Positions 30,541 to 32,762 of a stretch of DNA of 56,790 nt are shown one piece after another. The stretch spans positions 1 through 56,790 of the forward strand of contig JAENVV010000102.1 of assembly GCA_016650365.1 (NCBI GenBank), written 5' to 3'. Positions within the stretch are counted from its first letter, which is position 1, and each line of letters opens with the position of its first letter. The stretch comes from Acidimicrobiia bacterium (GTDB lineage Bacteria; Actinomycetota; Acidimicrobiia; Spongiisociales; JAENVV01). Under the pieces are notes generated by a model. The model was not told where the DNA came from and did not search any database. It worked only from the letters and a program-made list of their open reading frames with translations. A program made the position numbers and the translations under genes.

Positions 30541-30926
30541 GGCGAAGCCGTCACAAGAGGATCGGACAGCGGGGCGTCTGCGGAGCGCACCACCACCCCG
30601 GGAGCCGATATCGTTCGCATGTCCGTCGGCAAGACCATACCCAGGTCGTTGGCAGCCGGAACAATTCGTGAAGGTGAACTGAGACGAGCCACTTCAAGAG
30701 TCAGCTCCAACCTCTGCTGCTCGGCCGTAGCAATTTGAGTTTCGAGTTCTTGGAGTTCAAACGCACTTCCGTCCAAAGCAGTCTGGGAGTAAATGAGGCC
30801 GAAGAAGACCAGGGCCACGACCAGGGTATAGACAATCCATGCCGCCACCCTGGGACGCACGGTTGCCCGTGAGGAGATCAAGCGAACCGGCTCAGCCGAC
30901 GGGCGGGGCAGGACCCGGGCGGTCAC
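30537..30926 (-). CDS. ftsL: Divisome protein FtsL
   Basis: A 129-residue bitopic protein. A short basic N terminus precedes a transmembrane helix (AAWIVYTLVVALVFFGLIYS). A short coiled coil follows (ELQELETQIATAEQQRLELTLEVARL), then LSSPSRIVPAANDLGMVLP, the FtsL-type C-terminal motif. The GTG at 30926 overlaps the rsmH stop as GTGA. The open frame to 31154 lies inside rsmH and is rejected. FtsL bridges FtsQ and FtsW/FtsI. Confidence 0.85.
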   Translation of the reverse strand: MTARVLPRPSAEPVRLISSRATVRPRVAAWIVYTLVVALVFFGLIYSQTALDGSAFELQELETQIATAEQQRLELTLEVARLSSPSRIVPAANDLGMVLPTDMRTISAPGVVVRSADAPLSDPLVTASP

Positions 30927-31849
30927 GCAGCCACCTTCTGCGCACAACGAAGCTTGGCGCTCCTGGCCCGAGGATTGGACGCAACTTCTGCTTCCTCCGG
31001 ACCAATTGCCTTGCGGGTAACGATGATCAGTTCCGGAACCGTGTTGCATGCACAGACCGGAAGACCAGGCGGGCACACGCACGTTTGGGCGGCCGCCGCA
31101 AACCGCTGCTTCACAATGCGGTCTTCGAGCGAATGATAGGAAATGACCACACACCGCCCGTTGGGTGCGAGGCGTTCGATGGCGGCGTCGAGGCCACGCT
31201 CAAGTTCGCCCAACTCGTCGTTTACGGCGATCCTGAGCGCTTGAAATGTGCGCCGAGCAGGGTGCCCACCGGTTTTTCGGGTGGCGGCGGGAATTGCCTC
31301 GCGCACGATCGACGCCAGCGAGGCGGTCTCGATGATTGGTCTTGCCTTGCAGATCGCTCGGGCGATCCGGACGGAGAAGCGTTCCTCCCCGTACTCGCGA
31401 ATGACCCGGGCCAGGTCGGCCTCTGACCATTCATTCACAATCTCGTCAGCCGTTAGCGGCCCATCGCCCATCCGCATGTCCAGCGGCCCGGGGTGACGGT
31501 AGGAGAAACCGCGAGTTGGTTCGTCGAGTTGGTGACTTGAGACGCCGAGGTCGAAAAGCACCCCATCGATGAATTCGATTCCCTCGGCGTCGAGTATTTG
31601 GGCGAGGTTTCCAAACGAGCCGCGCACAAACGAGAAGTGCTCGTTATCGGCCAGGTCGGCTGTATTTGGACCGGCGTCCGGATCTTGATCGAGCCCGATG
31701 ACATCGAGGCCGCCCCGGTTCAGCAAACGGCGAGTGTGACCGCCACCACCGAAGGTGGCATCGAGGATCACACCGCTTTTGATGTCGCTGAACATGTTCA
31801 TGACTTCCTCTGCCATCACAGGCTCGTGGTAGGGGTTGGGCTGATGCAT
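30923..31849 (-). CDS. rsmH: 16S rRNA (cytosine(1402)-N(4))-methyltransferase
   Basis: A 308-residue SAM-dependent methyltransferase. Homology starts at YHEPVMAEEVMNMF. The SAM motif is ILDATFGGGGHTRRLL, followed by FDLGVSSHQLDEPTRGFSYR and the C-terminal YHSLEDRIVKQRF. It methylates C1402 in the 16S rRNA decoding centre. The ATG at 31849 is preceded within 1 nt by a G-rich SD (GGGGGGCTGGC) that is the 3' arm of a perfect 13-bp inverted repeat. Confidence 0.95.
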   Translation of the reverse strand: MHQPNPYHEPVMAEEVMNMFSDIKSGVILDATFGGGGHTRRLLNRGGLDVIGLDQDPDAGPNTADLADNEHFSFVRGSFGNLAQILDAEGIEFIDGVLFDLGVSSHQLDEPTRGFSYRHPGPLDMRMGDGPLTADEIVNEWSEADLARVIREYGEERFSVRIARAICKARPIIETASLASIVREAIPAATRKTGGHPARRTFQALRIAVNDELGELERGLDAAIERLAPNGRCVVISYHSLEDRIVKQRFAAAAQTCVCPPGLPVCACNTVPELIIVTRKAIGPEEAEVASNPRARSAKLRCAQKVAA

Positions 31850-31850
31850 T

Positions 31851-31928
31851 GCCAGCCCCCCGGGCGCTGGCACCAAACGGAAGCGGGCGGAGTAAGGGGC
31901 CTTCCAATCTGGTAACCGGGGGGCTGGC
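31851..31928 (-). promoter_or_regulatory. RNA helix sequestering the rsmH ribosome-binding site
   Basis: GCCAGCCCCCCGG at 31851-31863 is the exact reverse complement of 31916-31928, with a 52-nt loop. In the mRNA the 3' arm contains the G6 SD and ends 1 nt before the rsmH ATG. The loop can add an inner stem (GGAAG/CTTCC and ACCA/TGGT). This predicts translational control of rsmH between mraZ and rsmH. It may relate to the mraW RNA motif reported upstream of this gene in some actinobacteria; I cannot confirm that match. Confidence 0.65.
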
Positions 31929-31949
31929 GATGAACCAGCCGATATTGTC

Positions 31950-32381
31950 CTAGATGCCGTGTTCTGAGAGAGCCTCCTCGATGTCCGCGTAGAAATCGTC
32001 TGCCGCTTCCGACATCGACTCCCACGTGGTCGTATCCCAAATCTCTATGCGGTCGGACATCCCGATGATCGTGACGTCCTTATCAAGGTGGGCATAGTCC
32101 TGAAGCTTTGCGGTGATAGCCACCCGGCGTTGCTTGTCAGGGACCTGGCTGTCTGCGGAGGCAAAGAACGAACGAGCGTAGGAGCGAGCTCGTGCGTTGG
32201 TGCGAGGCAATTCCCTCACCCGTGCCTCCTCTTCCGCCCACTGGTCGAGCGGGAAGACGAAAAGGCAGCGTTCCTGCCCTTTGGTGATGACGCAGCCATC
32301 GGAGAAGTGATCGCGGAACTTGGCGGGCAGCACGAGGCGGCCTTTGGGGTCCAGTGTGTGTTGGTATTCACCGACGAGCAC
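31950..32381 (-). CDS. mraZ: Transcriptional regulator MraZ
   Basis: A 143-residue protein with two SpoVT/AbrB-like MraZ repeats: VGEYQHTLDPKGRLVLPAKF at the N terminus, then VPDKQRRVAITAKLQDYAHL. MraZ binds repeats upstream of its own gene and controls the dcw operon. I place the start at GTG 32381 because the family begins with this xLxGEYxHTLD motif and AGGA lies upstream. The open frame to 32441 runs into the leader. Confidence 0.92.
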   Translation of the reverse strand: MLVGEYQHTLDPKGRLVLPAKFRDHFSDGCVITKGQERCLFVFPLDQWAEEEARVRELPRTNARARSYARSFFASADSQVPDKQRRVAITAKLQDYAHLDKDVTIIGMSDRIEIWDTTTWESMSEAADDFYADIEEALSEHGI

Positions 32382-32417
32382 TTGTCTTGGTTCCTGTCGT
32401 TCATGAGCGGGGTCCTT

Positions 32418-32454
32418 CCACTGCGCCCCACTTTGCACCACTTCGACCCATTTG
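32418..32454 (-). promoter_or_regulatory. MraZ operator: four 10-bp-spaced repeats
   Basis: On the minus strand the repeats read AAATGG, AAGTGG, AAGTGG and CAGTGG. On the plus strand they are CCACTG, CCACTT, CCACTT and CCATTT at 32418, 32428, 32438 and 32448. The period is exactly 10 bp. MraZ proteins bind TGGG/AAGTGG-type direct repeats of this spacing, so this is very probably the autoregulatory site of the cluster. Confidence 0.75.
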
Positions 32455-32458
32455 TCAA
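32430..32458 (-). promoter_or_regulatory. mraZ (dcw) promoter
   Basis: On the minus strand TTGACA (32458-32453) and CAAAGT (32435-32430) are 17 nt apart. The MraZ repeats overlap the spacer and the -10 box, as expected for repression. The predicted leader is about 40 nt. Confidence 0.55.
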
Positions 32459-32762
32459 CTCACTTGAACCATTTTTCCCCTTTTTTGTCAAATTTCCCCT
32501 CAGATGGCGCGAAAGACGCATCTGATCGGAACTCCCCTCCACCTCAACTCCGCCGTTCGGACGATCTGTCAAGAGTCAATTCGACTGACCTGGACCGCCC
32601 GAAGGTCAAGTTGTCCGATGCCAGGCACCAAATATCACGCATGTAATTACACGCTTTGTATTCATAACACCCGAAGAAACCTCTTAAGAGACACTGAATA
32701 CCGCCCGAAAACTTTGACAACAACAGGAAACCTTTTGTCACGCAACGTAGGAGATGCCGACA
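32459..32762. other. Divergent intergenic region between mraZ and the secreted protein gene
   Basis: About 300 nt, richer in A/T than its surroundings. On the minus strand another TTGACA lies at 32491-32486 and further TTGAC-like boxes lie near 32574 and 32609. An inverted repeat TGACCT (32586-32591) / AGGTCA (32603-32608) and a perfect palindrome CTCTTAAGAG (32681-32690) are present. A TTGACA lies at 32714-32719 on the plus strand. Open frames here are short and do not look coding. Confidence 0.4.

Follow-up and report, generated by a model that had tools for sequence, protein, structure and literature searches.

A covarying RNA element between mraZ and rsmH in Acidimicrobiia, probably a regulatory leader

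The window (the whole stretch of 56,790 nucleotides that was analysed) carries mraZ, rsmH and ftsL, all on the minus strand. The rsmH (mraW) gene at 30923–31849 encodes a 16S rRNA C1402 N4-methyltransferase of 308 aa (NCBIfam TIGR00006, E 1.6e-95), and the next gene after it is ftsL, with an NCBIfam score slightly below the curated cut-off. The mraZ ORF occupies 31950–32441 (TIGR00242, E 1.8e-36); its start codon is uncertain. Upstream of mraZ, a run of TGG-type repeats (AATGGGTCGAAGTGGTGCAAAGTGGGG) at ~10-nt spacing is found on the minus strand at 32410–32480, and these repeats resemble the MraZ operator described in other bacteria.

In the gap between mraZ and rsmH, positions 31851–31863 (GCCAGCCCCCCGG) are the exact reverse complement of 31916–31928, as claimed in the first-pass annotation of this DNA. 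Read on the mRNA, the 3' arm (CCGGGGGGCUGGC) carries the Shine-Dalgarno sequence (SD) and ends at 31851, a single A (31850) separating it from the rsmH AUG at 31849–31847; this placement, claimed earlier, was also confirmed. The 13-bp helix proposed there is real but too short as stated, the full inverted repeat having arms of 25 nt that are 88% complementary, with the 5' arm at 31916–31940 and the 3' arm at 31839–31863, so that the AUG and codons 2–4 of rsmH are also inside. The SD-like GGGGGG (31856–31861) is entirely paired in the stem, with 6 nt from its last G to the AUG. Among the 27 close inverted repeats of the window the rsmH-leader repeat is the second longest, and the longest is only 71% complementary. 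The folding energy of the mRNA segment is -59.9 kcal/mol compared with -41.4 +/- 4.0 for shuffles (z -4.7, 0/200). From the inverted repeat and the models, the whole element was placed at 31839–31940 (31841–31939 by the boundaries of covariance model R1), its 5' arm beginning 9 nt after the mraZ stop.

The 52-nt loop between the 13-nt arms had been expected to pair further, and both the single-sequence fold and the covariation agreed with this. A middle helix joins ACCAGAU (31907–31913) to GUUUGGU (31872–31878), its first pair covarying from A-U to G-C (22 versus 21 sequences), and in the alignment consensus an apical hairpin pairs GGAAG (31901–31905) with CUUCC (31879–31883). This hairpin displays the near-invariant loop core CUCCGCCC (31885–31892), which is predicted to be mostly unpaired (mean P(unpaired) ~0.85). 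No intrinsic terminator or attenuator (a GC stem followed by a U run) was detected at the leader. A dispersed palindromic (REP-like) repeat was considered and rejected, the helix not being dispersed in the window's own genome and the element occurring in one copy per genome.

The corresponding gap of relatives was located through RsmH in 59 genomes, the window's own included. Within the order, where RsmH gave full-length matches of 48–96% identity to the query, all 56 genomes whose upstream sequence could be read, again counting the window's own, had the element between mraZ and rsmH. In three members of the genus the gap core was identical base for base despite RsmH identities of 80–96%. Model R1 matched 179 of 296 genomes of the class, and among other Acidimicrobiia sampled outside the order the element was found in about half or more. 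In a sample of 397 genomes from the phylum, R1 matched 13 and the class model R2 matched 23, all of them within Acidimicrobiia; no element was found in the ~360 genomes of other actinobacterial classes. R1 confirmed three of 117 loci gathered with a loose contig sequence pattern, labelled Actinomycetes or Acidimicrobiia. Among the matches listed, each genome had a single place in the sense orientation, second places being the antisense of the same near-palindrome, and where checked the sense copy sits between mraZ and rsmH. This neighbourhood was further supported by loci from the R1 search, mostly outside the training set of the model, of which 28 of 30 had an rsmH-like frame directly behind the element by script; one of the two that the script missed (G012) was placed before rsmH by other evidence.

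The leader is missing in several families of the class (G126, G170, G249, G180, G228, G089 and others; L259, L261, L264–L266, L277), and in most class families without it mraZ abuts or overlaps rsmH. The element is therefore dispensable in some lineages. In most members outside the order a further conserved hairpin, GGGGAGA(C/A)AUCCC, separates the apical hairpin from the 3' arm (L108–L113, L258–L295); it is absent from the window's order and from f56. In G039:C43 and G044:C53, both from one genus of f7, RsmH matched as two segments separated by a gap near residue 129, which suggests an insertion at this position, and no MraZ-like frame was found directly upstream of the element at these loci (L058, L059).

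Covariation was assessed in two alignments, one (A1) of 47 distinct sequences of the order, collected partly via the pattern CCGCCC, and one (A3) of 47 sequences mostly from other families of the class, gathered from model matches. A motif-independent check relied on upstream regions chosen by RsmH position alone. The A1 consensus comprised the outer stem, the middle helix and the apical hairpin. Double-sided changes occurred in 20 of 33 pairs of A1, with 118 compensatory cells compared with 40.9 +/- 7.0 after shuffling, and in 26 of 28 pairs of the A3 outer stem, with 266 compared with 82.8 +/- 7.5, the shuffle test being inflated by the kinship of the sequences. Sliding the register preserves kinship and gave an unambiguous result: 91.4% of cells were paired in the order and 91.3% in the class outer stem, falling to 33–50% and 32–45%, respectively, after sliding. 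Compensatory changes in the arms of relatives were thus found where the earlier annotation had called for them, and drift without covariation was not seen. G-U combinations exceeded A-C by about 3:1 (115:41 in the order and 96:28 in the class), indicating that it is the mRNA strand that folds and is under selection. As judged by this comparison, the leader helix is a real RNA structure whose arms co-vary in relatives.

The first-pass annotation further held that the helix buries the ribosome-binding site of rsmH. This stood for the whole order, where the stem contains the AUG (a few members have GUG instead) and, apart from one gap, the two outer pairs of this codon are standard in 46 or more of 47 sequences. 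It is not a shared property of the element, however, since about half of the relatives outside the order start rsmH beyond the stem: SD and start codon were both in the stem in ~19 of 45 sampled members outside the order (13 by script and 6 by reading), whereas in the remainder the codon at that site is missing, unclear or in another frame, the rsmH start lying tens of nt downstream. Burial alone therefore does not explain the conservation of the element, and direct SD occlusion cannot be the mechanism shared by its members; on the aligned sequences, SD burial appears as a common, not a general, use of the element. At five loci (L110, L111, L262, L263, L108) the stem AUG is kept despite not sharing the RsmH frame, and may represent a short upstream reading frame or merely paired sequence.

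The loop consensus CUCC(G/A)CCC is the main invariant or near-invariant block class-wide. Of 44 upstream regions of the class from outside the order, some R1-positive and some R1-negative, 30 contained CUCCGCCC exactly and two a one-base variant, and in most of the others mraZ runs straight into rsmH; the same sequence was found in none of 35 upstream regions from genomes of other classes. The loop stays GC-rich even in the ~1 Mb AT-rich f56 genomes, each of which has the exact 14-mer a single time, at the element. Its invariance is not absolute, two out-of-sample members reading CUCCACCC, and the next base varies. The idea that the C-rich loop pairs with the G-rich SD arm was rejected by inspection, since the arm takes several forms (GGGGGG, GAGGGG, GAGAGA, GGAGGA) and the loop is kept. 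Since stem and hairpin persist with the start outside in about half of the relatives and the loop is still near-invariant, the loop must have a function of its own, and the RBS helix alone does not account for the element.

The leader is probably a regulatory RNA. On balance, we consider it likely that it is an orphan cis-regulatory leader gating rsmH and the downstream division and cell-wall genes, with a recognition loop and, in the order, a stem over the RBS. Such a cis-acting leader in the mraZ-rsmH mRNA would consist of a 20–30 bp outer stem, a middle and apical hairpin and the displayed loop. In the order, the closed stem holds both the SD and the AUG, so initiation on rsmH should be blocked while it is closed, and through coupling the closed stem would lower ftsL and later division and cell-wall genes independently of mraZ, in line with the gating of rsmH apart from mraZ suggested at first pass. 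The near-invariant loop would serve as the binding site of a putative trans-acting factor, which would either stabilise the stem or open it. The comparison of sequences establishes the structure, its strand, its gene neighbourhood, the burial of SD and AUG in the order and the conservation of the loop, while we infer the translational repression, the switching, the loop-bound factor and the effects on ftsL and later genes; the stem could also act as a fixed throttle rather than as a switch.

Four other functional accounts were weighed; the first two hold the greatest interest and can be tested directly. The first is autoregulation of RsmH by substrate mimicry, in which RsmH would bind a loop imitating 16S rRNA positions 1396–1405 and the stem would stay closed when the enzyme exceeds free 30S. 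The loop ACUCCGCCCG and E. coli 16S 1396–1405 (ACACCGCCCG) agree at 9 of 10 positions, C1402 being in register; this is the best match of the loop across E. coli 16S and 23S rRNA, and wherever checked the element immediately precedes the gene of the C1402 enzyme. Composition-preserving shuffles match equally well in 2.6% of cases (P=0.026), which is modest for a post hoc idea; with such weak statistics, the likeness of the loop to 16S around C1402 is a lead, not a result. The position of A1398 is U in nearly all members, the G1405-equivalent base is A, U or C in some families, and CUCCACCC alters the G1401-equivalent base. RsmH has also been reported to be active on 30S subunits and not on protein-free rRNA (PMC5053481), and METTL15, its human homologue, shows no sequence specificity when binding RNA in vitro (PMC10828496). 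Mimicry by the loop is hence doubtful, and a leader that uses a loop resembling the methylated site to sense RsmH, or the methylation state of 16S C1402, seems similarly improbable. If true, an rRNA methyltransferase or its product would control its own mRNA, tying the division and cell-wall operon to ribosome maturation. The rRNA numbering was taken from E. coli since the own-genome match for ACACCGCCCGTC proved not to be 16S and was rejected. A second rRNA mimic noticed by eye, GGUGCCAG versus the 16S 530 region, was also discarded: its first bases belong to a covarying stem (GGU/GGC) and the segment is missing in many members.

Alternatively, the buried start could make rsmH translation dependent on m4C1402 ribosomes, giving feedback without any leader-bound factor. 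This would be consistent with the AUG and SD lying in a comparable stem across the whole order and with a 2026 preprint in which Bacillus subtilis mRNAs with start-codon-occluding stem-loops require MraW-modified ribosomes (PMC13317604). In the same preprint, however, strengthening the stem abolished translation altogether (PMC13317604), and the leader stem here is long and GC-rich; the near-invariant loop and the relatives starting outside the stem would also be left unexplained. We regard such a methylation read-out as quite unlikely.

The chances of a ligand-free leader, either a fixed throttle or a coupling device with a stem that restrains rsmH and that ribosomes completing mraZ would partly open, appear comparably low. 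In the window the mraZ stop is close to the stem, and in the whole order the SD is covered, but across the class the distance from the mraZ stop to the core ranges from ~43 to ~190 nt, and neither a conserved loop nor an apical hairpin would be needed for a simple throttle. Processing by RNase III or another nuclease, which would cut the 20–30 bp stem, separate the mraZ from the rsmH mRNA and set their relative stability, is very unlikely: it would fit a long covarying duplex kept between the same two genes even where the start codon is uncovered, but it does not require a near-invariant single-stranded loop, and in the order cleavage of the stem could part the rsmH start from its SD. A chance palindrome, dispersed repeat or DNA-binding site with no RNA role can be practically dismissed, since G-rich and C-rich arms are frequent in such genomes but both-side compensation in nearly every pair, the excess of G-U over A-C and the single copy per genome argue against it.

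It has long been puzzling why an rRNA methyltransferase gene heads the division and cell-wall cluster. Here a well-supported RNA element that has no entry in Rfam 15 occupies precisely the mraZ-rsmH gap in much of Acidimicrobiia, placed to control rsmH and the genes that follow. With a consensus and a near-invariant loop in hand, pull-down, probing and ligand tests are straightforward. Our search, which covered part of the literature and, among motif collections, Rfam, found no published description of the element.

In SD-sequestering riboswitches and ribosomal-protein autoregulatory leaders, a conserved recognition part is joined to a stem that closes over the SD and AUG. The favoured reading of the rsmH leader as a gating RNA gives it this same combination, but SD closure is not kept in every relative and the rsmH leader is known from one predicted fold.

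The first-pass annotation had raised possible identity with the known mraW motif (RF01746), a structured RNA described upstream of mraW/rsmH in actinobacteria (Weinberg et al. 2010; PMC2864571). This was not borne out, searches being empty in both directions. RF01746 gave no match in the window at the gathering cut-off (50 bits), none at E=10 in 31700–32150 and none at E=1 in 11 class members, and no match was listed in genomes of the window's class, whereas genomes of other classes do match; reciprocally, R1 found nothing in nine RF01746 loci at E up to 10. No other Rfam family reached its cut-off, and the sole match at E=8, SNORD35, was rejected as chance. Both elements are actinobacterial structured RNAs of ~100 nt upstream of mraW/rsmH, but they differ in sequence and layout. 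RF01746 occupies the mraZ-rsmH gap in mycobacteria, corynebacteria and others, and was found only outside the window's class. In several of its loci that were read (L060–L067), tens of nt separate the motif from the SD-like sequence and start codon downstream; from these sequences RF01746 therefore appears not to act by burying them. Taken together, the two elements indicate that the mraZ-rsmH gap either gained structured RNA at least twice or holds RNAs that diverged beyond recognition.

The msiK motif (RF01747), for which feedback by the encoded protein was proposed, is likewise a long hairpin with the RBS in its basal 3' side, but it concerns another gene and sequence and has an 11-nt bulge, whereas the rsmH leader has a conserved apical loop (PMC2864571). 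An extended dcw leader with the sRNA UpsM has been reported in Rhodobacter sphaeroides (PMC5089854), also a leader RNA of the division/cell-wall cluster; it belongs to another phylum and reportedly precedes the entire cluster, whereas the rsmH element lies inside the operon, in the mraZ-rsmH gap. The B. subtilis cmpA mRNA shares a start-codon stem and a connection to MraW/RsmH (PMC13317604), but the cmpA stem is short, lying between the RBS and codon 6, whereas the element described here has a 20–30 bp stem and a near-invariant loop and is part of the rsmH mRNA itself.
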